Source: a virus
DNA length: 27,067 nucleotides
Virus record (IMG/VR): IMGVR_UViG_3300049827_000149
Location: 1-27,067 of that record
Reading direction: 5' to 3' (one strand)
Shown here: in pieces, positions 982 to 25,201 of the stretch
Position numbering within the stretch: the first letter of the stretch is position 1
Layout: every line of letters starts with the position of its first letter
Made by a program: the position numbers and the translations under genes
Notes under the pieces: generated by a model
Seen by the model: the letters and a program-made list of their open reading frames with translations, nothing else
Told to the model about the DNA's origin: nothing
The model's database searches: none

Positions 982-1194
982 TTACGATGATCTTGCTGCC
1001 GTAAGCGCAACAAGTAAAGTGTCAAGTTCCTCCCATCGCAGGGAAGCAGCGCAGCGCAGCGGCATGGCCTTCCCGTCTTGGTGGATCATGAAGGAGCATC
1101 CCTCAAGATTGCCCCACTGATAGACGGTCACGCTTATGCCGTTGCCTTGGACATAGGTTTCTTTTGTGTCGACTTGGAATGTTTGTAGTTTCAT
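982..1194 (-). CDS. Small hypothetical protein
   Basis: A 70-residue protein with alternating hydrophobic residues in its first half (TFQVDTKETYVQ, ISVTVYQWG), suggesting a small beta-sheet, followed by a helix (LRWEELDTLLVALTAAR). No known motif was seen. Its start overlaps the stop of the DnaC-like gene by 4 bp (ATGA), so it is translated from the same message and lies just downstream of the helicase loader. Function unknown. Confidence 0.65.
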   Translation of the reverse strand: MKLQTFQVDTKETYVQGNGISVTVYQWGNLEGCSFMIHQDGKAMPLRCAASLRWEELDTLLVALTAARSS

Positions 1195-1772
1195 GATTTT
1201 CTTCTGAATGAGTCCCAGTTAAATGCTAGTTTTGCACCGTTCTCCTCCACCCTGTCAAGCACCGCTGGGGACAGTGTTGACGCTAACTTCTCCCATGAGT
1301 AGTTGGTGATGAGGATTGTCGGCATGTCGGCGGCATATCTTGCGTCGATGATGGACGTAAGTTGACGGTCTTCGTATTGCGTCTCCCCTCGCTCCTGCAC
1401 CTCGTCGATGACAAGCAAAGCTGCTTCTGTGTAGTCGGATACCACTTCCTTCTCGGACTTCTTTGTCCCCGCTGTGTAAGTGGACTTAATCGTCGAGAAC
1501 AGATTGACGGCGGTAGTGTAGATGAACGGTCGTTTGCGGTAGCTAGTTGACCATCCCTGCTCTGCCGTGGCAATCTGTGGGTTTCTGGATTTATGCGCAC
1601 GGGCAACCTCCCATGCCATCCTTGTCTTGCCTGTGCCGTAACCGCCATAGAGAATGGTGATTCCTCCAGCATCGGTGGTGGCTAAGGCTTTGGCGTAGTT
1701 GGCAAGCCATCCATCGCCGCTGGCAGGTGGCGCGTTTTCGTATCGTTTTGGAAATCCTCTTAGTGGGTTCAT
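1191..1772 (-). CDS. DnaC/DnaI-like AAA+ ATPase (replicative helicase loader)
   Basis: A 193-residue AAA+ ATPase of the helicase-loader type. Walker A is GGYGTGKT at residues 43-50, Walker B is LLVIDE at 119-124, a sensor-1 segment ILITN lies at 153-157, and LSPAVLDRVEE (around 168-177) carries the arginine typical of the family's last helix. DnaC-type loaders place the hexameric replicative helicase onto DNA. This one is slightly shorter than usual and lacks a large N-terminal helicase-binding domain. No helicase or DNA polymerase gene was recognised in the window, so it may load the host helicase or one encoded beyond the edges. The start ATG overlaps the stop of the upstream gene (ATGA). 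The first codons (MNPLR) match the start of that neighbour. Confidence 0.85.
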   Translation of the reverse strand: MNPLRGFPKRYENAPPASGDGWLANYAKALATTDAGGITILYGGYGTGKTRMAWEVARAHKSRNPQIATAEQGWSTSYRKRPFIYTTAVNLFSTIKSTYTAGTKKSEKEVVSDYTEAALLVIDEVQERGETQYEDRQLTSIIDARYAADMPTILITNYSWEKLASTLSPAVLDRVEENGAKLAFNWDSFRRKS

Positions 1773-3408: not shown

Positions 3409-3415
3409 TGCTGTA

Positions 3416-3616: not shown

Positions 3617-3627
3617 TGCTGTATTAG

Positions 3628-4892: not shown

Positions 4893-4901
4893 GTCGTAAT
4901 G

Positions 4902-5308: not shown

Positions 5309-5318
5309 TGTGTTCTGG

Positions 5319-5594: not shown

Positions 5595-5599
5595 TGTGG

Positions 5600-6034
5600 T
5601 TATTGTTGTGTTCCGTATTTCGCTATCAGCAAAGCGTCAGCTATCGCGTGAGTCACTTTGATGCTAGGGAAAAGCTCTTGTGCGCGTTGCTTGGTAATGT
5701 TCTTATCACCTTTCGTCAAACATCCAAGCTCTTTTTGCCAAATTTGTGGGCGAACTCTGGTGAATGGAATCCCCGCTGCGGTGAGTGCCATTTCGAGATG
5801 CCCGAATCCGTTGCCGAATGTGAACGCTGACTTCACGCCCTGCTGCGGGGAGGAATAAACCTGCTCAAGATATGCGTGAATCCCCGTGCCGCCGCCTCCA
5901 GCGTTCAGACTGATGGAGACGATCAACTCCCACAAGTCTTGCAGGGTATCAGGAATTTTCTCGGCGCATGGTTTCCCGTCTGTGATCCATGCGATGCCTC
6001 CGTTTGTGCCTGGGTCGAGTCCGATGATTGTCAT
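5600..6034 (-). CDS. ruvC: RuvC-like Holliday junction resolvase
   Basis: A 144-residue RNase H-fold nuclease of the RuvC type. The acidic residues are in the expected order: D7 in IGLDPGTNGG, E57 in AYLEQV, and H129/D133 in THAIADALLIA. SSPQQGVKSAFTFGNGFGHLEMAL follows the glutamate as in phage RuvC proteins. RuvC enzymes cut four-way junctions symmetrically. In phages they resolve branched replicating DNA before packaging. The ATG at 6034 was chosen because GGAAAG precedes it and it overlaps the previous stop (ATGA). A TTG nine bases upstream is less likely. The length is at the short end for RuvC. The exonuclease and ERF genes lie about 1-2 kb upstream in the same array. Confidence 0.85.
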   Translation of the reverse strand: MTIIGLDPGTNGGIAWITDGKPCAEKIPDTLQDLWELIVSISLNAGGGGTGIHAYLEQVYSSPQQGVKSAFTFGNGFGHLEMALTAAGIPFTRVRPQIWQKELGCLTKGDKNITKQRAQELFPSIKVTHAIADALLIAKYGTQQ

Positions 6035-6234
6035 TCTTTCCAAAGTTTGATTTTGAGTTTCTTTGCAAGTCCGACAACTGCGTCGATCTCGTTTTCGTGG
6101 GTAAAGTTATGCTGCGTTCCGCTTTTGTATGCGACCCATTGATCGTCTTTCTTCATAAGCGTTTTAATGTTGCGCTCCTTCATCCATTTGAGCCGTGGCG
6201 ATTCGTCTTCTGGCAGGTCGGGGAACAGGTTCAT
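6031..6234 (-). CDS. Small hypothetical protein upstream of the resolvase
   Basis: A 67-residue basic protein from the ATG at 6234, which overlaps the previous stop by 4 bp. A longer reading from 6291 is possible but would overlap the upstream gene by about 60 bp. The sequence has a helix SPRLKWMKERNIKTLMKK, then QWVAYKSGTQHNFTHENEIDAVVGLAKKL. The 'K.DDqWvAy' and 'ihTg..E.eAvvgLakk' parts look like a small alpha-beta fold. The same layout recurs in phages next to replication genes, but no function is known to me. Confidence 0.6.
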   Translation of the reverse strand: MNLFPDLPEDESPRLKWMKERNIKTLMKKDDQWVAYKSGTQHNFTHENEIDAVVGLAKKLKIKLWKE

Positions 6235-6431
6235 AACAGTTCTGATTTGAGTCTCCCCACTTCCACTCCCCTGCCCGTCTCGATCAGGCAATGAGCAACT
6301 CCCTGCATGTCTCTCAGCACGTTTGCGAGAAACTTCTGGTCGGTTGGGCTGCCGTTAGCGTAAGGGATTGTGATGGATTGAAAGCCTTTGGCTTCCGCTT
6401 CTTTAATTGTGTATGTCGGTGGTTGTTTCAT
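6231..6431 (-). CDS. Small hypothetical protein
   Basis: A 66-residue protein: TYTIKEAEAKGFQSITIPYA suggests a strand-helix-strand, and DQKFLANVLRDMQGVAHCLIET a long helix followed by a short strand. No family was recognised. Its stop overlaps the chosen start of the next gene. The start is 58 bp from the end of the previous gene, which is one of the larger gaps in this part of the array. Confidence 0.6.
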   Translation of the reverse strand: MKQPPTYTIKEAEAKGFQSITIPYANGSPTDQKFLANVLRDMQGVAHCLIETGRGVEVGRLKSELL

Positions 6432-6489
6432 GTTGGAAAGTGCGCCCTGTTGCGATTCTCAGGGCTTGAGGATTGTTTACTGTCGCAAC

Positions 6490-6732
6490 TCAGTCTGTTC
6501 TTACTCGGAAATAGCGGGTGTTGTAGCTGTTTCCTGGTTTCGATTCGCGGAACTCCACCCCTTCCAGCAAGCTGCTGCCGTGATCTCGTTCCACCTTTTC
6601 TCTGGATAGCCAGAGTTCTTTGTTTTCGTCCAGCGCGACGAGATACTTCTGCGCCTCGGCATCCCATCCCTTGATGGTTTTGTTCCAGTATTGGGTGCCG
6701 ATTTCCAGAGGTGTGTCATCGAATAGTCCCAT
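6490..6732 (-). CDS. Small hypothetical protein
   Basis: An 80-residue protein with beta-rich segments: IGTQYWNKTIKGWDAEAQKYLVALDENKELWLS, then VEFRESKPGNSYNTRYFRVR. The pattern suggests a small beta-barrel, possibly OB-like. It sits directly downstream of another small beta-rich gene and close to the exonuclease and ERF genes, so a role alongside single-stranded DNA is conceivable, but no motif shows this. A competing frame at 6428-6667 (79 codons) was rejected as it is arginine- and glutamine-rich noise. Confidence 0.6.
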   Translation of the reverse strand: MGLFDDTPLEIGTQYWNKTIKGWDAEAQKYLVALDENKELWLSREKVERDHGSSLLEGVEFRESKPGNSYNTRYFRVRTD

Positions 6733-6733
6733 A

Positions 6734-6964
6734 TTAGAAAGGAGGTTCTTCTTCTGGTGCTAATGCCCCACCGTAGGGCTTCGGCTCGTAGAACGAGATC
6801 CACCCACTCCAATCTGGGGACACTGGCACCCCGTCGAGCTTCAGGGATAGCTTGCCGCCTTCGCCTTCAAAGACTGCGCCAATCGTGAGATAGCGTTTCT
6901 TTTCTGTTCCGTCCTTTGCCGTGTATTTGCCCACGGTAGCAACTGCATCGTATTTCTTTTTCAT
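6734..6964 (-). CDS. Small conserved phage protein, beta-rich (possible ssDNA-related)
   Basis: A 76-residue protein reading YDAVATVGKYTAKDGTEKKR, then YLTIGAVFEGEGGKLSLKLDGVPVSP and WSGWISFYEP. It belongs to a small beta-rich family I recognise from phage and plasmid replication regions ('AvaTvGkYt..dG.eK.RY..IG.vFe...G.lslkLd..Pv.....GwisfyeP'), whose function is unknown to me. Its acidic tail EEEPPF resembles single-stranded DNA-binding protein tails. That similarity, and its position next to the exonuclease and ERF genes, suggest a role with single-stranded DNA. The leader is AATTTAACCAATATG. Confidence 0.6.
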   Translation of the reverse strand: MKKKYDAVATVGKYTAKDGTEKKRYLTIGAVFEGEGGKLSLKLDGVPVSPDWSGWISFYEPKPYGGALAPEEEPPF

Positions 6965-7006
6965 ATTGGTTAAATTATGCGTGTAGGATGCGCATCCCCC
7001 ATGGTT

Positions 7007-7813
7007 TTACAGATAAGCTGGTTTTTCGATTGTCGTGATTCCCTCATGCTGGCGCGGCCAGTAATCAGTCGCGCAACATGCTTGCCATTTAGCGAGCGCG
7101 TTCATGTAACCGATGCGCCCCTCGATGATAAGCTCAGGGGAAATCTCCACCCATGCCGTCTCATGCGGTGCCTCCACCTCGATGAAGCAAATGACAAAAC
7201 GTGTGCGCTTCTCGCCGCTGGCTGCGTTCCAGAGGTCGAGATACAATGCTGCTTGCCAGTGGTAGCCACGATCAACGATTGTATTTGTGATGCTCCGAAG
7301 ACTCCCGATTTTCGCCGTGGTCTTCAGGTCAACAAGCAAATCAAGATTGTCAGGAACGAGGTCAATCATTCCCTTGATCTCGGTCGCTCCGATCGTGGCA
7401 AAAACCGCAACCTCGGACTTGTAGCCACCTGCGAACCGTTGCGCGTAGTCCTCGGAAAAGACTGCCTCGCATCCTGACGCTGCGCGAATGTCAGCATCGG
7501 TCGCAATCATCTTGCCCATAGCCCGTGCATCGTCGCGCCATTCCTGCGCTGCCTTCGTTCGGAAGTCAGAGTAGGGTGACACCGCTGCAATCTCGTCTAG
7601 GGGCAAATTTGGCTCAAGAATAGCGGCGTGAATGAGCGTTCCAAGCTCCATCGCCTTCGTCGTCTCCTTCTCCACTCCGTGCCGCCACTTGTAGGGCGAT
7701 TGGTTGAACTCCCATAAGAGGGATTTCGACACAGGCGCGGAGAGGTTGCGGGGATTGGCAGAGCGCATGTAATACGCCTTGCCAAGATTGTATTCGATTG
7801 TTGCGTTTTTCAT
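7007..7813 (-). CDS. PDDEXK-family exonuclease (RecE/YqaJ-like, DUF3799 type)
   Basis: A 268-residue protein with the phage exonuclease VIII-like motif order. H62 sits in GTLIHAAILEP, E134 in SEVAVF, D151 in IKGMIDLVP, D162 and K164 in LVDLKTT, then Q187 and Y191 in YHWQAALYLD. These are the PDDEXK metal and catalytic residues (D-x-K core plus Q..Y helix). Such enzymes resect 5' ends to leave 3' single strands for an annealing protein, which here is the ERF gene immediately upstream (2 bp between them). ATG 7813 was preferred; an in-frame TTG two codons earlier overlaps the ERF stop. No clear ribosome-binding site is visible, so translation may be coupled. Confidence 0.85.
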   Translation of the reverse strand: MKNATIEYNLGKAYYMRSANPRNLSAPVSKSLLWEFNQSPYKWRHGVEKETTKAMELGTLIHAAILEPNLPLDEIAAVSPYSDFRTKAAQEWRDDARAMGKMIATDADIRAASGCEAVFSEDYAQRFAGGYKSEVAVFATIGATEIKGMIDLVPDNLDLLVDLKTTAKIGSLRSITNTIVDRGYHWQAALYLDLWNAASGEKRTRFVICFIEVEAPHETAWVEISPELIIEGRIGYMNALAKWQACCATDYWPRQHEGITTIEKPAYL

Positions 7814-7815
7814 AT

Positions 7816-8415
7816 TCAAGCGTTCGTTTGATTTTGTGGCGCAACTTTCGACTTCGCTGCAAATGCTCGGTCAATTGCTGGGATTTTATCGGTCGTCAAC
7901 TGCCCAATGCTCTTGACCCCGTAGTGTTTCAGAAATGCTTCTTGGTCAATCGCGAGGGTTTCGATTGCTTCCTTGATGCGAGTCACTTCTGCGCTGGTGA
8001 TAAGCGGGTGAACGATAGCTGGCTTGTTATGCGCCGCCGTGTTCCCATCGTCATCCTCCTGGGCGATGCCACAAACTGCCGCGAGGCTGTAACGTCTCAG
8101 GTAGGTTGTTGCCGCTCCGATGCCTTGCCCGTCCTGTTTAGCAGGAACACACGACATCGTTCCGTAGATGTAACCGCCGCCGCTGTGGGCAATGGTCGTC
8201 GTAACGTGTGCCACTGTGCCGTCGAATGAGGGCGATTGCACCACGGACAATCCGTTTGCCGCTAATACTGGGCGAACGGTGTTGAGGACTTCCGCAAGGT
8301 CTGCGTATCGGGATTTGAAATGGGGATTAACGCTCCCCTTCGTTGCGTTTTCCACTTCGCCTTGCATCTTGGCTAGGGCGGTGAAAAGCTCTGGTGTGCT
8401 GTGTTCTAGGTTCAT
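7816..8415 (-). CDS. erf: ERF-family single-strand annealing protein
   Basis: A 199-residue ERF recombinase. The core begins KMQGEVENATKGSVNPHFKS and RYADLAEVLNTVRPVLAANGL, and the diagnostic segment GQGIGAATTYLRRYSLAAVCGIAQEDDD lies at about residues 96-123. The C-terminal part (about 125-199) is variable, as usual. ERF proteins anneal complementary single strands and help circularise or recombine phage DNA. The exonuclease follows 2 bp downstream, so the two form an end-resection and annealing pair like other phage two-component recombination systems. The ATG is at 8415. Confidence 0.9.
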   Translation of the reverse strand: MNLEHSTPELFTALAKMQGEVENATKGSVNPHFKSRYADLAEVLNTVRPVLAANGLSVVQSPSFDGTVAHVTTTIAHSGGGYIYGTMSCVPAKQDGQGIGAATTYLRRYSLAAVCGIAQEDDDGNTAAHNKPAIVHPLITSAEVTRIKEAIETLAIDQEAFLKHYGVKSIGQLTTDKIPAIDRAFAAKSKVAPQNQTNA

Positions 8416-8418
8416 ATG

Positions 8419-8829
8419 TTATTTTTGGGTGAATGAGAGGAGTGCTTTTGCGTGGAGCATTGCGGCTTCTTTGGTGAGGTGGATGAGTCCTTTATTAAGA
8501 GTGTCGAAATCCATAGGCCCGCCATCCCATGAGTATTCAACAACACTCTCCATGGAGCCGATGGATACATCATAATACTTTTGATAATCCTGCAAAGGCT
8601 CTCGCACAGGCTCAGGCACCTCGAAACCGTTGATGTTGATTGTGCGGGGTTTGCGGCGGTATTCGGTAAGAGAAATCCATGTTGGACTCATTTCCAACTG
8701 CTTCCATTTACTGCTTAGCGCGGAAAACCATTCCCACCGCTCCCACGGCTTGTCGGTTTCCATTGCGTCTTGCGCATACTGCGCCATCAATTCTGCGTGT
8801 TTGTGTTTCATGCTTCTTTTATGTTTCAT
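8419..8829 (-). CDS. Conserved phage protein with KPWERWE and YRRKP motifs
   Basis: A 136-residue protein from the ATG at 8829; a second ATG at 8811 (MKHKHAELM) is equally possible, and both have A-rich, GAA-containing leaders. The N-terminal part reads KHAELMAQYAQDAMETDKPWERWEW and ends in EYRRKPR. I recognise this module from many phages, often repeated in related proteins: a helix, then KPWE.WE, a variable linker, a tryptophan, and YRRKP. Its function is unknown to me. The second half has VREPLQDYQKYYDV and a helix TLNKGLIHLTKEAAMLHAKALL. It sits 4 bp upstream of the ERF gene. Confidence 0.7.
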   Translation of the reverse strand: MKHKRSMKHKHAELMAQYAQDAMETDKPWERWEWFSALSSKWKQLEMSPTWISLTEYRRKPRTININGFEVPEPVREPLQDYQKYYDVSIGSMESVVEYSWDGGPMDFDTLNKGLIHLTKEAAMLHAKALLSFTQK

Positions 8830-8884
8830 ATTTCTTTCTGTGTTTGGATGATTTGCGGTGGTTTCACGCCTCACCAAAATTTTT

Positions 8885-9094
8885 TTATGCTTTTTCCTGC
8901 TCCTCGGCAAGAATAATTTCTGAATATTTTTCCAATATCATTTTTTCAGCTTCGCTCTGTTGAACTAGCCCGAACAATTGGCGAATGTCCCGCGCCATTT
9001 GATGTGGCCACTCGCCTGTGGTGCTGATGTCGCAATCTTCAAGCAGGTCGATCAACCAATCTGCCTCGGTTCTGGTTAGTGTTAATTTTTTCAT
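8885..9094 (-). CDS. Small hypothetical protein
   Basis: A 69-residue helical protein from the ATG at 9094, which overlaps the DnaA-domain gene's stop by 4 bp. Its sequence starts MKKLTLTRTEADWLIDLLEDC, then MARDIRQLFGLVQQSEAEKMILEKYS, and ends in an acidic tail EEQEKA. No family was recognised. It may work with the DnaA-like protein because they are translationally coupled. There are about 55 bp between this gene and the next one downstream. Confidence 0.6.
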   Translation of the reverse strand: MKKLTLTRTEADWLIDLLEDCDISTTGEWPHQMARDIRQLFGLVQQSEAEKMILEKYSEIILAEEQEKA

Positions 9095-9399
9095 TGTGCT
9101 GATTCGTTTGTAATTTCTGCGTATCGCTTGAGGATCTTGCGCATCCGTTCCTTGGTTGCCTGGCAATACTGCAATTTGTCATAAATCACCCTCCGCGCAT
9201 AGTGTGCAACTGTGTGGTTGCTTCGCCCGACTACCTCGCTTGAGTCCTGGAGGCTGTGCGAGTCGCTCCAGATAGCCATGACCATCTGCCTTGCCAGCAC
9301 CTCTGCTTGCTTGCGGCGTTTGCCTGTGATGTCCTCAGGGTCTACCTTCAGCACCTCGGCGGCGGCTCGGATGAGGGCTTGCGCGTTGTCAACTAACAT
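9091..9399 (-). CDS. Stand-alone DnaA domain IV-like DNA-binding protein
   Basis: A 102-residue protein that matches the C-terminal DNA-binding domain of DnaA without the ATPase domain. It reads LIRAAAEVLKVDPEDITGKRRKQAEVLARQMVMAIW, continues to SSEVVGRSNHTVAHYARRV at residues 53-71, and ends with a long basic helix. This corresponds to DnaA's basic-loop region and the GR(D/S)H(T/S)TV-like signature, with SNHTV replacing the usual residues. DnaA domain IV binds DnaA boxes at origins. A lone domain would compete with DnaA or direct replication at a phage origin. A strong ribosome-binding site (AAAGGAGG, four bases before the ATG) is present. Family assignment is by eye. Confidence 0.75.
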   Translation of the reverse strand: MLVDNAQALIRAAAEVLKVDPEDITGKRRKQAEVLARQMVMAIWSDSHSLQDSSEVVGRSNHTVAHYARRVIYDKLQYCQATKERMRKILKRYAEITNESAQ

Positions 9400-9686
9400 C
9401 CTGCCTCCTTTCTCCAGTAACGGATGAGCTTGGCTACGTCTTTGCGATCAACGGTCAGATATGGCTCGTTTGTGAATCGCTGAAGCATCATTGCAAATCT
9501 GAACGGGTGGCGCGACGTAATGATGGTGCGGGTTTCCGTGCGGTAAATTCTCCCCCCGTGTGATGGGCGATGAGTAACAAACGGCATCGGCTTGCGCTTG
9601 CTCGGCTCTGGCTCTGGGCGATCCATTGCTGGGTCGTATTCTGGTTTCGGTGGCATAGGTTCTTCTGCGTGTTCGTAAAGGCTCAT
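9393..9686 (-). CDS. Basic hypothetical protein
   Basis: A 97-residue protein. The N-terminus is proline-rich and acidic (EEPMPPKPEYDPAMDRPEPEPS). The second half is basic: RPSHGGRIYRTETRTIITSR, then RFAMMLQRFTNEPYLTVDRKDVAKLIRYWRKE. A disordered N-terminal part and a small folded C-terminal part, possibly nucleic-acid binding, is the most economical reading. No family was recognised. It overlaps the start of the DnaA-like gene by 7 bp, which places that gene's ribosome-binding site inside this gene. Confidence 0.6.
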   Translation of the reverse strand: MSLYEHAEEPMPPKPEYDPAMDRPEPEPSKRKPMPFVTHRPSHGGRIYRTETRTIITSRHPFRFAMMLQRFTNEPYLTVDRKDVAKLIRYWRKEAGC

Positions 9687-9829
9687 TGTTTTGATATGGT
9701 TAGGCGTTGGTCGAGTAATTCGTTGATCTTCTCCATCCAGTATGCTTTGCGCTCTGGCTTGGCATCCATCCAGCTTTCGCGCAGGATGGCTAGCTTTTCG
9801 TCGATTTGTTTTAGTAACTGGTCTTTCAT
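9683..9829 (-). CDS. Small charged helical protein (48 aa)
   Basis: A 48-residue gene: MKDQLLKQIDEKLAILRES, then WMDAKPERKAYWMEKINELL, ending QRLTISKQ. It is almost entirely amphipathic helix. Both ends overlap neighbours (ATGA with the downstream gene, TGATG with the upstream membrane gene), which supports it as real in spite of its size. No family was recognised; a coiled-coil adaptor is plausible but unproven. Confidence 0.7.
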   Translation of the reverse strand: MKDQLLKQIDEKLAILRESWMDAKPERKAYWMEKINELLDQRLTISKQ

Positions 9830-9978
9830 CAAAATGCGAGGGTGAAAAATAAAATGCTAATCATGAAACCAAAGGTCATGCCTAGCGCGAAAATCATGAC
9901 TAGGGCAATAACGCCGACAATCGGCTGGTCTGCGCCCTGGGAATAATTGTATTGTGTGTTGTGGTAGTTTGCTTTCAT
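9829..9978 (-). CDS. Small membrane protein (49 aa)
   Basis: A 49-residue protein: about 18 polar residues (MKANYHNTQYNYSQGADQ) followed by about 31 hydrophobic residues, PIVGVIALVMIFALGMTFGF and ISILFFTLAF. The hydrophobic part is long enough for one long span or a tight hairpin. The start overlaps the previous stop (ATGA) and the stop overlaps the next start (TGATG). A holin, antiholin or membrane anchor would have this size, but nothing in the sequence decides; no lysis enzyme was recognised nearby. Confidence 0.7.
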   Translation of the reverse strand: MKANYHNTQYNYSQGADQPIVGVIALVMIFALGMTFGFMISILFFTLAF

Positions 9979-10340
9979 AGGTTTTGCATCAATTCGTTGG
10001 TTCGTTGTTCGATTTGGATGAGGATTTCTTTCGCGTTATCTAGGCGCAAACGCAGGATGCTTGAGCTTCCTGTCTTTTTGCAGTATTTAGCCGCTTCAAT
10101 CGCGTTGTAGAACTTGTATCCAAGTTTAGATAGCTCTGGGTCTTTTGGTTCGTCCGTGGAATTATGAGTGCCTCGTGGCAATGCTTTACATAATTGACCA
10201 CAAGCGCAAGTCACCCAGTTGGAAGCTAGCTTCTCTGCTTCAGTTAATGCTTTCAAGCTGATGTCATCTACTGGTTGAGCTAAGAACAGGAACCAATTAA
10301 AGTCTTTTTTCGTTGGGTCGTGTGATCTTTTGTTTTTCAT
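9975..10340 (-). CDS. Hypothetical protein
   Basis: A 121-residue protein. Visible parts are a basic N-terminus, then KDFNWFLFLAQPVDDISLKALTEAEKLASNWVTCACGQLCKALPRGT with three cysteines in CACGQLC, and a C-terminal helix KEILIQIEQRTNELM. The cysteine cluster could bind a metal. Phage proteins with 'LtEAEkLAsnWVTCACGQLCkalPR' appear to form a recurring family of unknown function. It has an AACCA-rich leader (AACTAACCACAACCACCATG) and is followed within 4 bp by the small membrane gene. Confidence 0.65.
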   Translation of the reverse strand: MKNKRSHDPTKKDFNWFLFLAQPVDDISLKALTEAEKLASNWVTCACGQLCKALPRGTHNSTDEPKDPELSKLGYKFYNAIEAAKYCKKTGSSSILRLRLDNAKEILIQIEQRTNELMQNL

Positions 10341-10351
10341 GGTGGTTGTGG

Positions 10352-10576
10352 TTAGTTGAGCATTTCAAGAGCGGCGTTGCGTAGATACGCTGGCACGTTC
10401 GGGCTGTTCAAGTCCGCTTCTTCGATCGTTTGACGTTCGCCCCTGATGAACTCCCCCACGCGTTGCGCTGGGTTGTCTGTGGGTTCGTATGGTGCCGCTA
10501 TGGGCATGTCTCCGATGATGGACATGCCTCCGATTCCGACGATAAGGGCTAGTGTTACAAGTATTTTATCTTTCAT
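10352..10576 (-). CDS. Small protein with N-terminal membrane/signal segment
   Basis: A 74-residue protein. The first 22 residues (KDKILVTLALIVGIGGMSII) form a hydrophobic segment preceded by a charged start, suitable as a membrane anchor or uncleaved signal. The remaining 50 residues are acidic and proline-rich (PYEPTDNPAQRVGEF, then EADLNSPNVPAYLRNAALEML) and would be outside. No recognised family. The leader before the ATG is a run of AACCA/ACAAACC repeats rather than a ribosome-binding site. Confidence 0.6.
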   Translation of the reverse strand: MKDKILVTLALIVGIGGMSIIGDMPIAAPYEPTDNPAQRVGEFIRGERQTIEEADLNSPNVPAYLRNAALEMLN

Positions 10577-10611
10577 TTGGTTTGTGGTTTGTGGTTTGCG
10601 GCTGTTTTCAC

Positions 10612-10648
10612 CGCCCTATGCTCTCCCTATAAGAGAGAGCAACGGGCG
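10612..10648. other. Extended imperfect stem-loop between two early genes
   Basis: CGCCC (10612-10616) pairs with GGGCG (10644-10648), then a 2x2 mismatch, then TGCTCTC (10619-10625) pairs with GAGAGCA (10635-10641), closing a 9-nt loop. The stem totals 12 base pairs. It lies in the 78-bp gap between the leftward genes ending at 10655 and starting at 10576. No clear U-run follows on the leftward RNA, so a simple intrinsic terminator is unlikely. An attenuator, RNase site or protein-binding element are alternatives. Confidence 0.55.
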
Positions 10649-10654
10649 ATCAAA

Positions 10655-11107
10655 TCAATCGCAATTGCAATAAACTAGCGCGTCAGAGTAACTGCATCCC
10701 CACTCCTCAGCGAGTTCTGCGGCGTGATCTCCTGGGCGGTCGCTTGCGACATCTGGTAAGCTGACAAACGCCTTGGCGATCATCCTTGCCGCTTGAGACA
10801 AAGCACGAGCTTGAGCATCAAGCCATGTCTCAGAGCTGTTTGGTTGACGTTCGCCGCCCTTGGTGCGTTTAAGCTCCGATGGACTGCAAAGCCGCTCTGC
10901 TATGTCTGCGTCATAGATGAGCGAGCACCCCCCGCAGGAGTAAGCTCTCCAGCTCTCCGCGCCGTTCAAGAGCTTTGCGGCGGTGTAATCGCCCTCTAAC
11001 TCCTCCAATAGCTCAAGAGCGTATTCTTTCACGCCTTTTTTCCATGCGGATTTTGCGGGGCTGTTTTTGATGATTTCGATTACGTTTTTGGTTGCTGTAG
11101 TTGTCAT
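10655..11107 (-). CDS. Conserved protein of unknown function (GGCSLIYDADIAERLCSPSE family)
   Basis: A 150-residue protein. The N-terminal part SAWKKGVKEYALELLEELEG and LLNGAESWRAYSCGGCSLIY, then DADIAERLCSPSELKRTKGG, and ERQPNSSETWLDAQARALSQ, match a family I recall from gut Firmicutes and phages ('W.kGV..YA..Lle.l....lLnGA..W..yS.GGCsLIYd.dIAeRLCtPSElkrt..G...PN..E.WLdvQARAL.qA'). Its function is unknown. The C-terminal 50 residues (KAFVSLPDVASDRPGDHAAE onward) are less conserved, with C146 and C149 at the end. Presence in a phage outside the usual gut setting suggests wide exchange. The leader is AACCACAAAAGAAAATG. Confidence 0.75.
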   Translation of the reverse strand: MTTTATKNVIEIIKNSPAKSAWKKGVKEYALELLEELEGDYTAAKLLNGAESWRAYSCGGCSLIYDADIAERLCSPSELKRTKGGERQPNSSETWLDAQARALSQAARMIAKAFVSLPDVASDRPGDHAAELAEEWGCSYSDALVYCNCD

Positions 11108-11161
11108 TTTCTTTTGTGGTTTGGTTGATTGGCAATGCCAGACCCCGAAGGGTTTCGTCCC

Positions 11162-11404
11162 TTAGCCTAGGGACTCGTCAGTGGCGGTTTGGAGCGATGC
11201 AATTAGAGCGTTAGCTTTGGTCACATAGCACTTGCGCTGTGGGAATATGCTTGGACCGCAACAATCGTAAACTAGCGCAACGCCCTCGTAATTTAGCTCT
11301 GCAACCGCTTCGCCTGCGCTGTTTAGGACTTGGATGCATACCATGCGCGCGCCATTGGATGCAACGAAATTAGATGCGATGTGTAATTTGATTTCTTTTT
11401 TCAT
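11162..11404 (-). CDS. Small hypothetical protein
   Basis: An 80-residue protein with beta-hairpin-like segments (IKLHIASNFVASNGARMVCI, then VLNSAGEAVAELNYEGVALV) followed by PQRKCYVTKANALIASLQTAT. It resembles a small beta-alpha fold. No family was recognised. The leader is CTAACCAGAACACAGCATG, very similar to that before the gene at 5308. Confidence 0.6.
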   Translation of the reverse strand: MKKEIKLHIASNFVASNGARMVCIQVLNSAGEAVAELNYEGVALVYDCCGPSIFPQRKCYVTKANALIASLQTATDESLG

Positions 11405-11435
11405 GCTGTGTTCTGGTTAGTGGTTTGCTGGCGGC

Positions 11436-11579
11436 TTAGAACTCTTCGGAAAGGATTACTTCCATTTCATCCACGCTCACTTGCTCACGCAATGCCGTGA
11501 GGACACGGTCATTTTCGAGGGCAAGCGAGGGTGAAACGTAGAGCATGGCGCAGAGGCTGATGAATTCGGTTTTGGTCAT
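11436..11579 (-). CDS. Small hypothetical protein (47 aa)
   Basis: A 47-residue gene on the leftward strand: MTKTEFISLCAMLYVSPS, then LALENDRVLTALREQVS, ending in an acidic VDEMEVILSEEF. The helical pattern is regular and the codon usage is like its neighbours. No family was recognised. Leader ACCAACCACCCAAACCAATG. It is one of two tiny genes at the start of the leftward array. Confidence 0.6.
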   Translation of the reverse strand: MTKTEFISLCAMLYVSPSLALENDRVLTALREQVSVDEMEVILSEEF

Positions 11580-11599
11580 TGGTTTGGGTGGTTGGTGGT

Positions 11600-11752
11600 T
11601 TAGTTATTGCAAGACATGGCTAGCGCAATTTCTGCTCTTCTCGCCTCTCCCATTGCGATATGGTTTGCAGTCATCAATCTCATGACGTTTTTAGAGCGAG
11701 GGAGCTTTGCGAGTCTAATTGCGCGGCGTGCATAGTAATTAGTGTTTTTCAT
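11600..11752 (-). CDS. Small basic protein (50 aa), first gene of the leftward array
   Basis: A 50-residue basic protein, MKNTNYYARRAIRLAKLPR, then SKNVMRLMTANHIAMGEARRA, ending EIALAMSCNN. It is rich in arginine, lysine and helix-forming residues, so it could bind nucleic acid. It is the promoter-proximal leftward gene next to the repeat-rich region. An AACCA-rich leader precedes the ATG. No family was recognised. Confidence 0.6.
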   Translation of the reverse strand: MKNTNYYARRAIRLAKLPRSKNVMRLMTANHIAMGEARRAEIALAMSCNN

Positions 11753-11935
11753 TTTGCTGATTTGGTTATTGGTTTCGCGCTAGGCGATGCAAGAAAAATG
11801 CCAGACCATCAGAAAATGTCAAAATTATTTTCATTTATTTTCAATAAATCGTATTTTCTCTTATTCTACAAGGGATTGAGAGCCATGGGAAACGCTCGCG
11901 AGATGGAAAATTTACGGCTGAACGGGAGCAAAAGC

Positions 11936-11981
11936 AATTACTAGGAGCATAGTATCATGAATTACTAGGAGCATAGTATCA
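11936..11981. repeat. Tandem direct repeat, 22-bp unit, 24-bp period
   Basis: Two exact copies of a 22-bp unit that starts AATTACTAGGAGCATAG and ends TATCA, at 11936-11957 and 11960-11981, separated by TG. The period is 24 bp. The unit contains TACTAGGAGCATAGTA, an imperfect dyad (TACTA at one end, TAGTA at the other). Two tandem dyads at about 24 bp could be operators for one protein binding side by side. The nearby leftward genes start at 11752. Confidence 0.85.
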
Positions 11982-11992
11982 AATCAATCGCC

Positions 11993-12207
11993 AAGCAAGC
12001 AATGCACGATCATCGGTCAGTGTACAAAGCGAAGCGGACGATTACTAAGTACGAACGCACAAGACCAAAGCAAGCAATCAACAATACACGCTGAAAGGCA
12101 TTTATTTATTTTGATTGAGTCAGTCAGTGAGTTATGAATGAATCAAAGCAAGCAAGCTAAGCAAGCAAGGATGTAAATAAGCAAGCAAGCAAGAAAGAGA
12201 AGCAAGG
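11993..12207. repeat. AAGC tetranucleotide repeat cluster
   Basis: The unit AAGC recurs in short tandem runs of two to three and a half copies: 11993-12002, 12068-12077, 12146-12157, 12159-12170 and 12179-12193. Isolated copies lie around them. Other four-base periods interleave: TTTATTTATT (about 12101), GTCAGTCAGT (about 12119) and GAATGAAT (about 12136). The spacing is irregular, so these are not classical iterons, but the density is far above chance. They fall inside the inverted repeat pair at 12021-12308. Confidence 0.75.
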
Positions 12208-12308
12208 CAGAAGAATATCCATTCACTCTCTCTAAAAAATAACACCAACAATCGCAATTCATCAGCGATCACTAAGCGTAGTTGACGACCGCTTCGCTTA
12301 TATGTACA
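12021..12308. repeat. Long-range inverted repeat (TGTACA + AAGCGAAGCGG)
   Basis: AAGCGAAGCGG at 12027-12037 is the exact reverse complement of CCGCTTCGCTT at 12289-12299, about 250 bp apart. Each arm also has TGTACA immediately outside it (12021-12026 and 12303-12308). The arms therefore form a palindromic pair with a small insertion (TAT) in the right arm. The AAGC repeats lie between. A protein binding both arms, a looping site, or the boundary of an origin are possible readings. Confidence 0.75.
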
Positions 12309-12450
12309 TTATACAGACACGCCAAAACATGTCAAGCAAAAAATTTGATTTGTCTCACTTTATGCGGGTTACAGCTCTCCCGCGTTTTTCGCTCATGCGG
12401 ATTTAAAACACACGTTGTTAACAAAGTGCGCACAGCACGACATGCCAGGG

Positions 12451-12531
12451 CATCGCCAAGCTCGATCATCGCCACATGACCGGCACCGACTCTAGGATGA
12501 CATGACCGGCACCGGCACAGCATCGCCAAGC
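12451..12531. repeat. Direct repeats CATCGCCAAGC and ACATGACCGGCACCG
   Basis: CATCGCCAAGC occurs at 12451-12461 and 12521-12531 (70 bp apart). ACATGACCGGCACCG occurs at 12474-12488 and 12500-12514 (26 bp apart), nested between them. A further close copy (AATCGCCAAGC) lies near 11986. Repeated non-coding words at fixed spacing are typical of protein binding sites in phage control regions. A role cannot be assigned from sequence alone. Confidence 0.7.
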
Positions 12532-12689
12532 AAACGATTGTTTCATGCAAGCGTTCCATCGGCGCGGACTGGGTGTGTTCATGCGAGTAGTGTTCGGGTG
12601 AGCAGGGGGGAGGGGGTCGCGCGCGCGGATGGGGCGAAATTACTATTGGATTCCCCGCCCAACAAAAAAATAGCCAAAGGGGAAACTAC

Positions 12690-12717
12690 TTGACATCCCC
12701 CCACAATCTGCTACAAC
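12690..12717 (+). promoter_or_regulatory. Candidate sigma-70-type late promoter, possibly giving a leaderless mRNA
   Basis: TTGACA at 12690-12695 matches the -35 consensus. TACAAC at 12712-12717, after a 16-bp spacer, is a four-of-six match to TATAAT. A start about seven bases after the -10 box would fall at about 12724, which is the A of the first late ATG. The transcript would then be leaderless. No ribosome-binding site lies between the promoter and the ATG, which agrees with that reading. Confidence 0.6.
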
Positions 12718-12723
12718 TTGCGT

Positions 12724-12978: not shown

Positions 12979-15422
12979 TGAGTCAATTTGCACAGAGTGG
13001 CAGTGCGATGGACGATGCCCAATCCTCTGATGGGGATGTTGGGTTTATCGGCGTGAATCAGCGACTACAGCTGAATCAGTTGCAAGCTGGTGAGGTGCGT
13101 GAGTCGTTGAATGGTAGGATTGAGGGGTTCTGGAAACCTCGGCGTGGTATTGTTGAAAAGACAAGCGCGTTTACTACTGGTAGTTCTCCTTTGGCATTGC
13201 CGTTCTATTTGATTGATACTCCGAAGACAATTTCTGCGGCGACTGTTCCTGTTGCTGGCACTGTTCGGATTACCGTTACTGGTCATGGATTTGGTGCTGG
13301 TTCACAAGGGTGGGCACGGATTTCTGGTCTGGATGCTGCGGTGAGCGGGGATTACTTGCTGACCCGTGTTGATGCTAATACCTTAGAGTATTCTGTGGCT
13401 GGCGTTACTTCGATTGTCGATGGTGTCGGGACATTGCAGCAAATGCCGATTAACGATGCCGCTAATGCCAACGTCCGTGCGTCATGCTTGTTCAGTGATC
13501 CAAATACCAATGACAAAGAGTATGTGATTATTGCGCTTGATTCCGTGGCGAAGAAGGTGGATTTGGAGACATTCGTGGCTACGGACATTCCTTATCCTAC
13601 TGGGCAATCACTTGGAGCGAAGACCGACATGATCCAAGTCTTTGACAAGGTCATGCTTTTCCGTGATGGCAAACAAGCGTTTGAATGGTATCCGAATGGT
13701 CGCCCTGTGTTGGCGGCTTCTAAGAGTGGATCTACGACTGTGACGATGCGCGTGGTCAAGCATGGATTGCTGGCAGGTGCTTCTGTGACGATTGCTGGAT
13801 TGACTGGCACGTCTGCTCCGAACGGGACGTATGTGGTGGCAAGCGTGGTTGACCAAGATACATTTACCTTCGTTGCGTCTCCTAGCCAGACGATTGCCTA
13901 CGGCGTTGCAAATGCGACAATGACCGACGGATTTACTTTGTCCCCTGGTGGAACTTATGTTCAGCCCCAAACTTTCAACGCAAATGGCAGCAACATAACA
14001 TCCACTGGGGGACTTGTTTCCATGACCGTTTCTGGCAACGTCACGCTAAATGCTGGTGATGTTGTTGTGGTCTATGAGTGCAGCATCCCTGAGTTTTCTT
14101 CGCTTGTTGGGAAAGAGTTTGTTCTGACAAATGCGACAACGACCTTGTTGCAATTCTACGCGCCTGTGCCTAATGTGAGCAGCGGATCTAGCTCCGTGTC
14201 AATCGAGGTGGGTGGGCAGTTTAGCGTGGGTGCTGGATTCATGCACCAGCCTGGTGCGCCATGGGGTGTTTACTTTCAACGCAGATTGTGGGTGCCGTTC
14301 TACTACGATCAAAGCGGTGCTTACAATGCGGTGACGTTCACGAGCCGTGGAATCACTGACGAGATTGCTGCATCGGACATTTTGGATACGACCACGTTCG
14401 ACCAGATTGCCAATCAGTTCCGAATCTCTGGTGGAACTGCGGATCATGTAGTGGCGATGCACGGATTCTATGATGATTCGTTGATTGTTCTGAATCGTAA
14501 CAGCTTGCACCTTGTGGCAGGAACGCAGGGAGGTCTAAGCGATACCGTGGTGAAAGAGCTTACATCGGAAGTCGGGTGCTTAGCTCGGAAAACTGTGGTG
14601 ATGAAAGGGAACGCGATGTTCTTTTTGTCCGACGATGGCGTTTATGCGGTGGAGTTCATCGAGCAATACAACCTTCGGGGCGCAGATGAGCCTATTTCCA
14701 AGAACATCCAGCCATACATTGACCGAATCAATCGTGATTTGGCTGGTGGCGCGGTGGCTACGCTGTATGAAAACCGCTATTACCTAGCTGTTCCTCTTGA
14801 TTCTGTAGTGGGTGCTGGTGATGCGCGTGGAAATAACGCAATTTTGGTGTTCAACTTCCTGAATAAAGCATGGGAGTCGCTTGATACCTTTGGCGATAGC
14901 CGCTTTTTGATCGAGGACTTCATCGTTGGTAGCGCAGCGGATCGGAATAACATCTATGCCGTGACCTCAAATGGTGGATTGCACCAGTTGGAAGCAGATG
15001 AAACGTCAAACGATCGTTTCAACGTGTCCAACGTAGGCAGTTCTTTGGTGACCGTGCCGATAAATGCCAAGCTTACCACCCGTGGATACAGCTTTAACAA
15101 CCTTGATCGTAAGCGGTTCACAGATGTTCAAGTGAACATCCAAGCATTGCAAGGGCAACAAGCGGAATACAACCTCCAATTTGCTGCGGAAGACCCTGAT
15201 GCCGCCGAAGAGATTGGCACGACTACGCAATTCCTTGGTGGTGAGGTTCTTTCTCCTAGCGGCAGCAACGAATCCGAGACTGCCAGCATCCGTTGCCGGC
15301 TTGGTGGCGTGCGAGGCTTCACAGGCACTATGATCTTGACAAGAACAATCGGTTCCCCTAGGGTGAACTCAGTTAAAGTCACAGGTAGCATTACCAATAG
15401 ACAAATCATTTCTCAGAAATAA
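12978..15422 (+). CDS. Tail nozzle / DNA stabilisation-type structural protein
   Basis: An 814-residue structural protein. The N-terminus QLNQLQAGEVRESLNGRIEG and FWKPRRGIVEK is typical of podovirus stabilisation/nozzle proteins (P22 gp10 or T7 gp12-like role), which close the tail tube below the portal and connector. Two beta-modules are inserted at about residues 95-150 and 253-320, each carrying an HG(F/L)..G..(V/A).I.GL pattern. The C-terminal two thirds carry beta-propeller-like segments (QRRLWVPFYYDQSG, then ILVFNFLNKAWESLDTFGDS). This is a call by layout and context, as it lies in front of fibre and ejection genes. The exact family is not confirmed. Confidence 0.7.
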   Translation: MSQFAQSGSAMDDAQSSDGDVGFIGVNQRLQLNQLQAGEVRESLNGRIEGFWKPRRGIVEKTSAFTTGSSPLALPFYLIDTPKTISAATVPVAGTVRITVTGHGFGAGSQGWARISGLDAAVSGDYLLTRVDANTLEYSVAGVTSIVDGVGTLQQMPINDAANANVRASCLFSDPNTNDKEYVIIALDSVAKKVDLETFVATDIPYPTGQSLGAKTDMIQVFDKVMLFRDGKQAFEWYPNGRPVLAASKSGSTTVTMRVVKHGLLAGASVTIAGLTGTSAPNGTYVVASVVDQDTFTFVASPSQTIAYGVANATMTDGFTLSPGGTYVQPQTFNANGSNITSTGGLVSMTVSGNVTLNAGDVVVVYECSIPEFSSLVGKEFVLTNATTTLLQFYAPVPNVSSGSSSVSIEVGGQFSVGAGFMHQPGAPWGVYFQRRLWVPFYYDQSGAYNAVTFTSRGITDEIAASDILDTTTFDQIANQFRISGGTADHVVAMHGFYDDSLIVLNRNSLHLVAGTQGGLSDTVVKELTSEVGCLARKTVVMKGNAMFFLSDDGVYAVEFIEQYNLRGADEPISKNIQPYIDRINRDLAGGAVATLYENRYYLAVPLDSVVGAGDARGNNAILVFNFLNKAWESLDTFGDSRFLIEDFIVGSAADRNNIYAVTSNGGLHQLEADETSNDRFNVSNVGSSLVTVPINAKLTTRGYSFNNLDRKRFTDVQVNIQALQGQQAEYNLQFAAEDPDAAEEIGTTTQFLGGEVLSPSGSNESETASIRCRLGGVRGFTGTMILTRTIGSPRVNSVKVTGSITNRQIISQK

Positions 15423-22442: not shown

Positions 22443-23024
22443 ATGAGCGAAGAACAACTCAAGAAGCTAAAAGAGAACTATTACGACGAGCAATCGGACA
22501 AGAGCGAATGGTTTCTAGAGGTGCGCGAACGTGCGAAGAACTTCCCCCGCAATAGCATCGAGCATTACGCCCCGCACAAAGCGGCGTTTGCTTTGCATTT
22601 GCTGGCTCAAGGCGCGAGGATTTCCGACATTGCCAAGAAGACTGGCATCAGTCGAGCATCCATTCGCACGTTGGAATGGCGGCATAACGACACGCTGGAA
22701 ACGAAGCGCAAGGAATTTTCGATGCGATATGCTATTGCCGCGCAGGAATACACCGACTTGCTGTTTGAGCGAGCGGAGCAGCTGTTCGATGATCCTGATG
22801 CGCTTGCTAAAATCTCGCCTGAGAAGTTAGCGATTACGGTGGGTGTGCTTACGGACAAAGCTGCCCAGCTTACAGGCATGGCGACTACGGTGGTGGAGCA
22901 TCGGAAGGGTGCAAGCATTGATGATGCTGCAAGGATGATTTCTGAGGCAAAAGCTAGGATTGCAAGCAAGATAAAAGAAAGCGCAATCGACGTTGAATTT
23001 GTTGACGTTTCGAAGGATTCTTGA
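22443..23024 (+). CDS. Putative small terminase subunit
   Basis: A 193-residue protein. A helix-turn-helix is at about residues 45-75 (AFALHLLAQGARISDIAKKT, then GISRASIRTLEWRHND), followed by long helices (YAIAAQEYTDLLFERAEQLF, then LAITVGVLTDKAAQLTGMAT). Small terminases combine an N-terminal HTH that recognises the packaging site with a helical oligomerisation domain, and this gene lies just upstream of terL. The assignment rests on layout and position. No Shine-Dalgarno match is evident before the ATG. A homing endonuclease gene now separates it from terL. Confidence 0.7.
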   Translation: MSEEQLKKLKENYYDEQSDKSEWFLEVRERAKNFPRNSIEHYAPHKAAFALHLLAQGARISDIAKKTGISRASIRTLEWRHNDTLETKRKEFSMRYAIAAQEYTDLLFERAEQLFDDPDALAKISPEKLAITVGVLTDKAAQLTGMATTVVEHRKGASIDDAARMISEAKARIASKIKESAIDVEFVDVSKDS

Positions 23025-23031
23025 TAAAAAC

Positions 23032-23066
23032 AAGCGTCAACCAGATGCGTGGTCTAGTTGACGCTT
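23032..23066 (+). other. 10-bp perfect inverted repeat between putative terS and the HNH gene
   Basis: AAGCGTCAAC (23032-23041) pairs with GTTGACGCTT (23057-23066), with a 15-nt loop. The stem is followed by TTTAAC, too short a U-run for a typical intrinsic terminator. It lies 8 bp after the putative terS stop and 15 bp before the HNH start. It could be a weak terminator, an RNA processing site, or the insertion boundary of the mobile gene. Confidence 0.55.
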
Positions 23067-23081
23067 TAACACGATACATAA

Positions 23082-23606
23082 ATGAGTATGAAAAGTGCTG
23101 AGAAAAATAAGTCAGAAGAATTGCTTGATGTCAATAGCATATTCAAATATTTGGACTACAATCCAGAGTCTGGAGTTTTTGTTTGGAAAGTAAAAACAAA
23201 AACAAGCAATGTTGGAGACATAGCTGGAAACACAAATTGGCGTGGATACACTTCAATATGGATTAATGGAACGCAGTATTACGCGCATCGACTAGCGTGG
23301 GCTTTTTCTCACGGATGCTGGCCTTCTGGAGATATTGACCATATCAATGAAAACAAGTCTGACAACAGGATTGCAAATTTAAGACCTGCAAGTCGGTCCG
23401 AGAACATGTTCAATCGAGGAAAGAACAAGAATAACACTTCTGGAATCAAGGGCGTTGTTTTTTGCAAAGCTACAAATAAATGGCGTGCGCAAATCATGAT
23501 TGACAGAAAGAGCGTTAATATCGGAAGATTCAAAACAAAGGAAGAAGCAGCTAATGCTTACATGATGAAAGCCAAAGAACTTAGAGGGGAGTTTGCAAAA
23601 TGCTAA
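23082..23606 (+). CDS. HNH homing endonuclease with AP2 DNA-binding domain
   Basis: A 174-residue selfish endonuclease. The HNH core runs from YAHRLAWAFSHGCWPSG (about residues 67-83) through DIDHINENKSDNRIANLRPA (84-103), with H69, D86/H87, N99 and N108 in the usual order. Residues 118-174 are an AP2 domain: NTSGIKGVVFCKATNKWRAQ, then SVNIGRFKTKEEAANAYMMK. HNH-AP2 genes cut a site in phage DNA and spread by repair. The gene sits between putative terS and terL, a common homing position, and its stop overlaps the terL ATG by 7 bp. Its base composition is more AT-rich than terL. Confidence 0.9.
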   Translation: MSMKSAEKNKSEELLDVNSIFKYLDYNPESGVFVWKVKTKTSNVGDIAGNTNWRGYTSIWINGTQYYAHRLAWAFSHGCWPSGDIDHINENKSDNRIANLRPASRSENMFNRGKNKNNTSGIKGVVFCKATNKWRAQIMIDRKSVNIGRFKTKEEAANAYMMKAKELRGEFAKC

Positions 23607-25201
23607 AATGGACAGAACACCCAGTTCTCCCCGTTCCGACCGATGAGGAGATTTGCTTGATGACTCCAGAGGAGTTGATCGAGATGCACCAGATTCGCGA
23701 AGAAGCTATCCGCAATTCCATTAAAGACCCGTTCCGATATGGGTGGAAGTTTGAGAACTGGCGTAAGCTAGAGAAATGCCTTGAAACGCGCAACGAAGCA
23801 CTTATTAGCGGCGGGAATCGGTCATCGAAAACGCAGGTGGGAGCTTACTTTGTTGTAAAAGCAGCAATCGAAAACCCTAATTCTGACATTTTCTGCTTTG
23901 CACAAAACGCTGAAGTGTCAATCCGACAACAACAAGCAGCAGTTTACGACTGGATGCCAGCAGAGTTCAAGAGCAAGCAGACAAGTCAAAACACTTATCT
24001 TTCCTACTCTAGGAAAAACGGATGGACTGACAACTCCTTGATTCTCCCAAACGGATCACGAATCTCATTCAAGACCTACGCTGCATTTGCCAACAACCAA
24101 ACAATCTTGGAAGGTGCTGAGCTTGGATCTAAGGAGGCGACATGGCTTAACATTGGCGCATGGTGCGACGAGATGCTTGGTGGTCCTGAGCTAGTTGACA
24201 CTTTACGGTTTCGTCTCGCCACAAGAAACAGCAAGTTAATGCTTACGTTCACGCCTATTTTTGGCTACACTGAGCTAATCAAGCAATATCTTGATGGCGC
24301 GAAAGTATTGGAAAGCAGGGAGGCTGAACTACTTGGTGGTGAAATGGTGCCGACAATCCTTGAGTGTAAAAACATCAAGGGGACGGTGCATTACTTCCAT
24401 TCGCAAGATAACCCTTTTGGTGGTTATGAGCGTATCAAGCAAACTCTCGCAGGAAAAACTAGGGAAGAAATCCTGATTCGTGCTTATGGCATCCCCACAA
24501 AAGCAGCCGCCACCAAGTTCCCGAAATTCAACAAGGTAGTGAACGTAGTCGAACCAGACAAAATCCCCAAGCACAACGTCACAAGATACCATATCATCGA
24601 CCCTGCTGGCTCAAAGAACTGGTTCATGTGTTGGATTGCAGTGGACGAGACTGGAACGATGTGGGTGTATCGCGAATGGCCTGGGGTGGACGTTGGCGAC
24701 TGGGCAGAGTGGAAAGGCGGCAAGTGGGTTCCTGGAGAGGGTGCCAAAGGTCAAGGCTACGGCATCCGAGATTACGTCGATCTCATTCAAGAAATGGAAG
24801 GCGAGGAGGAAATCTTTGAGCGACTAATCGACCCGCGCCTAGGTGCTGCGAAATACCAAGTGCAAGATGGATCATCGTCCATCATCGAAGACCTAAACGA
24901 AATCGGCATGGTATGCATCCCTGCTCCAGGTCTCGACATTGACGATGGCTTGCAAGCTCTCATCGGGAAAATGGCATGGGATACATCCAAGCCGTTGGAT
25001 TCCGTCAATCGTCCGCATTTCTACGTCAGTTCCGAGTGCGAGAACATCATCCAAGCGTTGTCAGAATACACGGGCGAAGGTGGATTGAAGGAAGCGTGGA
25101 AAGACCCTGTCGACGTTCTTCGCTATGCAGCAATCTCAGGGATAGATCATGTTGACAATTCCGTCAGTTTTGTTACAACTCAAGGAAGTGGAGGTTACTA
25201 A
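23600..25201 (+). CDS. terL: Terminase large subunit
   Basis: A 533-residue packaging motor. The N-terminal ATPase has Walker A SGGNRSSKT at residues 70-78, Walker B GAWCDE at 185-190 (D189, E190), and the coupling motif TFTP at 215-218. The C-terminal RNase H-fold nuclease has the metal-binding aspartates in DPAGS (D333), LIDPRLG (D410) and DPVDVLRYA (501-509). The ATPase pumps DNA into the capsid and the nuclease cuts concatemers. It starts at ATG 23600 inside the end of the HNH gene. That ATG lacks a clear ribosome-binding site, so translation may be coupled. Packaging partners are terS upstream and the portal downstream. Confidence 0.93.
   Translation: MLKWTEHPVLPVPTDEEICLMTPEELIEMHQIREEAIRNSIKDPFRYGWKFENWRKLEKCLETRNEALISGGNRSSKTQVGAYFVVKAAIENPNSDIFCFAQNAEVSIRQQQAAVYDWMPAEFKSKQTSQNTYLSYSRKNGWTDNSLILPNGSRISFKTYAAFANNQTILEGAELGSKEATWLNIGAWCDEMLGGPELVDTLRFRLATRNSKLMLTFTPIFGYTELIKQYLDGAKVLESREAELLGGEMVPTILECKNIKGTVHYFHSQDNPFGGYERIKQTLAGKTREEILIRAYGIPTKAAATKFPKFNKVVNVVEPDKIPKHNVTRYHIIDPAGSKNWFMCWIAVDETGTMWVYREWPGVDVGDWAEWKGGKWVPGEGAKGQGYGIRDYVDLIQEMEGEEEIFERLIDPRLGAAKYQVQDGSSSIIEDLNEIGMVCIPAPGLDIDDGLQALIGKMAWDTSKPLDSVNRPHFYVSSECENIIQALSEYTGEGGLKEAWKDPVDVLRYAAISGIDHVDNSVSFVTTQGSGGY

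Follow-up and report, generated by a model that had tools for sequence, protein, structure and literature searches.

In an uncultured phage, the gap at 11753-12723 (970 bases) separates two gene blocks of opposite direction; it likely combines divergent promoters with an array of operators and a probable packaging site. The window analyzed here is the whole 27,067-bp IMG/VR record of this phage. Support for this reading comes from the promoter sequences and their conservation, a palindrome array between the promoters, a two-block site with its spacing, and genome ends that lie between the same two blocks in other phages. The gap would then serve as the regulatory and packaging center of a podophage-type genome of about 36-38 kb. 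Host RNA polymerase (sigma70 type) would transcribe the early genes leftward from 12335-12308 and the late genes rightward from 12690-12717, with a dimeric phage regulator probably occupying the palindromes in between. Terminase would cut concatemers, or start packaging, at a G-run together with a block of the form CCCCGCCC / A-rich / CAAAGGGG. This would probably be a cos site, cut around 12652/12661 to leave a short overhang, so that the packaged genome would carry the late promoter about 30 bp from its left end and, at the opposite end, the operator array with the early promoter.

The leftward early genes (775-11752) encode, among others, a DnaC-like helicase loader, a PAPS reductase, a RuvC-like resolvase, an exonuclease VIII-like protein and Erf. 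Rightward genes run from 12724 to the end of the window and encode tail/fiber proteins, a TerS-like protein, an HNH protein, TerL and portal (Table 1). No convincing or conserved open reading frame fills 11753-12723, and the first rightward ATG is at 12724, in agreement with an earlier note on this DNA that had described the gap as non-coding sequence between opposing blocks. A search of the gap DNA against deposited phages gave no match, and the closest TerL in the phage collection, that of Phage C75C1, is 41% identical. Relatives were gathered with an Erf-based scan that returned 80 loci, about 50 of which also carry the first late gene. In a set of more distant relatives (L057-L078), Erf and the first late gene share one orientation, with about 8-10 kb between them; the wider group therefore does not have the divergent layout throughout.

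Table 1. Features of the window, ordered by position, with strand where assigned.
Feature	Position	Strand	Remarks
DnaC-like helicase loader	1191..1772	-	phrog_50, E 2.2e-36
Dispersed palindrome copy, Erf/Exo junction	7816..7831		same place in G001 and G002
Stand-alone DnaA domain IV (DNA-binding HTH) protein, 102 aa	9091..9399	-	PF08299, E 6.6e-9
First gene of leftward (early) block, function unknown	11600..11752	-	50 aa; 62-69% identical homologues in L003, L025 and L027
A+T-rich block (21% GC)	11808..11877		position next to first early gene conserved
24-bp-period tandem repeat	11936..11981		TRF score 92; 22-bp perfect copies; private to window genome
Long inverted repeat	arms 12027-12047 / 12279-12299		21 nt, 81%
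AAGC array	12129..12215		+ strand purine-rich; leftward transcript pyrimidine-rich
Conserved leader box (GTTGRTGATATTTWWTRGRG..GTGAATAGG), not coding	12213..12258	-	alignment of 24 leaders
Leftward (early) sigma70-type promoter, TTGACA-16-TATAAT	12308..12335	-	12/12 consensus
Two 16-bp palindromic operator-like sites, 13-bp phased	12530-12545, 12543-12558		PWM TCAARCGNNYGWTTGA, 16.3 and 11.8 bits
Two 15-bp direct repeats GTGTTCATGCGAGTA / GTGTTCGGGTGAGCA	12575..12604		adjoin G-run; ~7 copies in G006
G-run GGGGGGAGGGGGTCG, left block of probable cos/packaging site	12605..12619	+	linked to terminase/late genes
Right block of probable cos site	12648..12681	+	predicted 9-nt overhang 12653-12661 (CCCCGCCCA), then ACAAAAAAATAGCCAAAGGG
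Rightward (late) extended -10 promoter, TTGACA-N13-TGC-TACAAC	12690..12717	+	6 nt before ATG
First gene of rightward block, 84 aa	12724..12978	+	homologues in ~50 Erf loci and 298 viral contig stretches
TerS-like (22443-23024), HNH/AP2 (23082-23606), TerL (23600-25201)	22443..25201	+	

The two strong promoters of the gap are conserved back to back in relatives, each directed towards its own gene block. Counterparts of the early promoter were found in about 35 relatives, one per relative, as a TTGACA-N16/18-TATAAT-like sequence on the opposite strand to the late promoter and 300-540 bp away from it. The late layout, TTGACA-N13-TGN-TANNAN followed after 6 nt by ATG, recurs in more than 25 relatives; judged by this -10-to-ATG spacing, the first late gene appears to be leaderless. 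We regard the promoter part of our reading as strong. The earlier note had proposed a switch between early and late expression, and as anatomy this proposal stands, with conserved divergent promoters and operator-like palindromes between them; control of the promoters in time, and the mechanism of any such switch, we infer. Separately, four genomes (G006, G007, G002 and G001) carry a second conserved strong promoter, of the TTGACATCCGTCCACGTTCTGCTTTTAT type, within the late block. It lies 15.3-17.5 kb to the right of the G-run and near a GC-skew sign change at which gene direction is unchanged.

Between the promoters, relatives have several 16-bp palindromes of the form TCAARCGNNYGWTTGA, often phased by 13 bp. 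The motif was found by inspection and then used to seed a search, while an unrestrained EM motif search recovered base composition only. In the window, the better of the two sites has a score that was reached in 0.2% of shuffles. At a 10-bit threshold, 33 spacers (10.5 kb) contain about 143 palindromes, and nine whole genomes (342 kb, gaps included) about 115. This enrichment is partly by construction because the motif was learned from the same spacers. Stronger support comes from the 13-bp phasing and from the lower frequency of the palindromes elsewhere in the genomes. The word TTCAAGCG is also strictly oriented, occurring 30 times on the + strand and never on the - strand of 24 spacers. On these sequence features the array probably binds a regulator. 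Divergent early control regions of the lambda type are built in a similar way, with repeated operators between back-to-back promoters, but in the window no CI/Cro-like gene was found and one of the two promoters serves the late structural genes. Outside the gap, in or between genes, the palindrome recurs in near-perfect form (7816-7831, 13669-13684, 15006-15021 and 25275-25290), much like dispersed repressor sites.

Replication is a second function that could be attributed to the gap, which the earlier note had put forward as a candidate origin. The domain IV protein of the early block might bind the repeats, the A+T-rich block might melt, and the DnaC-like loader might bring in host DnaB. The domain IV protein is conserved in 74 loci and matches PDB 3pvp/1j1v by profile and fold, and a helicase loader is encoded nearby. 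It shares with bacterial DnaA the domain IV fold and an invariant arginine and histidine of the DNA-contacting parts. Unlike bacterial DnaA it has no AAA+ domain, and its contact residues are changed in part relative to E. coli DnaA, so it may recognize something other than a DnaA box. A DnaA-box-like word, TTGTCYANA, occurs in the leaders of 17 of 24 relatives, mostly beside the A+T-rich block, and the phased repeats are iteron-like; the window gap, however, has neither a DnaA box cluster nor TTGTCYANA, and the TTWTNCACA box is absent from it, as the earlier note had seen by eye. The palindromes, moreover, fit a dimer better than a monomeric domain IV, and initiator sites are frequently located inside initiator genes. 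The GC-skew comparison that had been suggested gave a divided answer across nine genomes. The detrended minimum falls within about 1 kb of the G-run in two distant relatives, but 4-5 kb to its left, inside the early genes, in six, and about 11 kb away in G017. Skew was dropped as proof of an origin, being off-center and confounded by transcription direction, since gene direction changes at the same gap. With no DnaA box in the gap, TTGTCYANA present only in the leaders of relatives, and a skew that is both off-center and confounded, we consider an additional origin possible but doubtful.

The G-rich/CG stretch of the gap begins at 12605. The earlier note had listed this stretch among the repeats and overlooked its probable best-conserved function, that of a cos-like DNA-packaging site. 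A G-run is present in 26 of the 26 spacers compared, nearly always as G6-10[A/C]G5, and it is the first part of a fixed order: GGGGGGAGGGGGTCG is followed at 42-46 nt by a C-rich core, beyond which lie an A/T block and CAAAGGGG. A position weight matrix of cos ends was built from 25 actinophage sites with the anchor letters excluded, and with this matrix position 12648 of the window ranks 2 of 54,068 positions. The best local match lies 42-46 nt from the start of the G-run in all 11 window-type genomes (43 nt in the window), although its genome-wide rank ranges from 1 to 759 and is poor in some relatives (759 in G002 and 511 in G011). The contig of the nearest relative, L359 (99% in the first late gene), stops at the base that matches window position 12656, within the predicted overhang. 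As one contig end among about 56 sites, with about 0.1 expected by chance, this is support for a packaging end and not proof of one. Taken as sequence, the G-run and right block are probably a packaging site (cos, possibly pac or a direct terminal repeat), and we consider the case for packaging good but short of proof for the window clade; cutting by the window phage at this site, and the overhang it would leave, we infer.

The same arrangement is found well beyond this clade. A scan of viral contigs for GGGGGGNGGGGGTCG returned at least 120 stretches. Among the matches listed, 73 contigs have A or C at the N position of the G-run, and 44 of them have TerL, portal or the first late gene downstream on the same strand, compared to 1 of 46 contigs with T or G, which serve as a natural control; the p value of 1e-11 for this difference is optimistic because the contigs are partly related. 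An A/T block follows the A/C-type G-run at a median of 44 nt (IQR 42-47, again among the matches listed), and the two-block site precedes terminase genes in many uncultured phages. Genome ends place a boundary within this arrangement. One 43,659-bp IMG/VR contig (G021) ends with ...GGGGGGGAGGGGGTCGCCAAATCCACCCCCCCTGTGCAT and begins with CCTAAAAATTTCCCCGGGGGG; these terminal sequences are the left and right blocks, so the ends of the contig are formed by the two blocks. A protein encoded at its right end matches what Streptomyces, Gordonia and Arthrobacter phages encode in their right-end gene, and the records of four phages, HotFries, Schwartz33, Hankly and LibertyBell, end and begin between the same two blocks. 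A 9-nt 3′ overhang, CGCCGCCCT, has been published for HotFries (PMC6256688). The overhang of Gordonia phage Pherobrine has likewise been published, and that of Burley is CGCCGCTCT (PMC9753669).

The cos site of these phages (cluster BI Streptomyces, DJ Gordonia and related Arthrobacter phages) has a G5-7(A)G5T tract first, next a C-rich overhang core, and after these an A/T block and a G-rich end. The probable site of the window keeps this order with similar spacing, with CGCCGCCCT as the core in those phages and CCCCGCCCA in the window. The window differs in its longer spacing from G-run to core, and GCAT directly before the overhang is replaced by GGATT; in the window clade, the actinophage pre-cut GCAT and second GGGGG block are only partly kept. 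The window site is also flanked by the divergent early and late promoters, and tail genes spanning about 10 kb lie between it and terS. The window TerL has no BLAST similarity to that of HotFries, so close kinship of the terminases does not account for the common site. Either the terminases have diverged beyond the reach of BLAST, or something else underlies the sharing of the site. Our search for isolates with both a close TerL and mapped ends found none, the only whole-length match being C75C1 (OQ984151, a circular record). Like the window, C75C1 has in a divergent gap a G7AG5TC site followed by CCGCCCCTTAAAAATTT, but its gap is directly upstream of terminase genes rather than tail genes. 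Three distant TerL relatives that were checked (EBPR podovirus 1, CV-1-33 and ctKR88) do not have the G-run site, ctKR88 having a G-tract without the remainder. A literature search for a G-tract cos motif found nothing usable.

Instead of a short-overhang cos cut, the two-block site could mark the point where headful (pac) packaging starts or where a direct terminal repeat has its edge. Several features of the terminase fit such a mechanism, as TerS is weakly similar to Sf6-type (headful) TerS, TerL belongs to the Terminase_6N family, and a site-bearing TerL has Pseudomonas phage tf among its distant relatives. In most contigs of the window clade the sequence continues through the site without a break, and the complete contigs are circular assemblies whose ends are scattered. 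Read-through and circular assembly are expected for replicating DNA and also for headful packaging. Complete window-clade contigs were ruled out as a source of physical ends, since their end repeats of 127, 87 and 127 nt look like assembler k-mer overlaps and the genomes are thus circular assemblies. Against a pac start or terminal-repeat edge stand the fixed spacing and overhang-like core held in common with mapped cos ends, and the contig end within that core, which make this alternative somewhat unlikely in our judgment.

Mitochondrial CSB II, a transcription-coupled G-quadruplex/R-loop element that primes replication, has two G tracts around one A, and the G-run resembles it in this respect. 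A priming role of this kind for the G-run is highly improbable, as no convincing upstream rightward promoter was found that would give a G-rich RNA of the G-run, and packaging better fits the match with mapped phage ends and the linkage to terminase.

The repeats that first drew attention to the gap are all present: the 24-bp tandem repeat, the AAGC clusters, the inverted repeat with TGTACA outside its arms (at 12021 and 12303), the direct repeats (among them ACATGACCGGCACCG twice, at 12474 and 12500) and the G-rich/CG segment. Conservation of these words is mixed. The 24-mer occurs in none of the other viral contigs in which it was sought. AAGC is found 21 times in the gap, compared to 500 dinucleotide shuffles that gave 8.2 on average and never more than 15, and at the position of the array relatives carry other purine-rich repeat units (CTCTCTTG, TTCC and TTATATCC), so that composition is conserved there and sequence is not. 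The right arm of the inverted repeat, immediately downstream of the leftward promoter, showed no conservation in an alignment of 24 leaders. These most visible repeats (24-bp tandem, AAGC clusters and long inverted repeat) look private to the window genome, whereas the promoters, the palindrome array and the G-run are conserved. Relatives thus keep the flanking genes without the listed repeats, an outcome the earlier note had named, together with skew and start-site data pointing elsewhere, as counting against its reading of the gap, yet they have other organized repeats in the same place. Neutral tandem expansion in a non-coding spacer would account for the private 24-mer and AAGC units, but is already disfavored and very unlikely for the gap as a whole, given promoters, palindromes and G-run at fixed positions across wide divergence. 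The box at 12213-12258 was ruled out as a source of a conserved leader peptide because stops and a 1-nt deletion break the reading frame in several relatives.

The individual kinds of element in the gap are known; what is new is their combination and the spread of the cos signature to phages with dissimilar TerL. A more speculative extension, which we hold to be unlikely as it stands, is that a G-tract cos architecture common to phages with BLAST-dissimilar TerL is, in the window clade, embedded between the early and late promoters in such a way that genome joining licenses regulated late transcription. The late promoter would meet its upstream operator array only after circularization or concatenation, which, if true, would provide that license. 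The arrangement also offers a concrete way to test whether early/late control is linked to genome joining. The order G6-7[A/C]G5TCG, about 30 nt, C-rich core and A/T block offers a recognizable signature for probable packaging ends in many uncultured phages, by which genome ends could be predicted from metagenomic contigs. A further point of interest is the phage family itself, whose members encode a DnaA domain IV protein that stands alone.

Several observations concern RNA. Rfam families gave nothing in the gap but one miRNA hit at chance level. Between two early genes, window positions 11135-11187 (- strand) contain a type I hammerhead ribozyme core (CUGACGAG...GAAAC...GUC), with a match of 27.4 bits, under the Rfam gathering score of 34, and an E value of 0.007 over the whole window; in eight relatives scanned, no hammerhead scored above gathering. 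The abiF RNA (RF03085) is found above its gathering score in two related phages, at 10453-10489 (- strand) of L025 and 13870-13906 (- strand) of L037.
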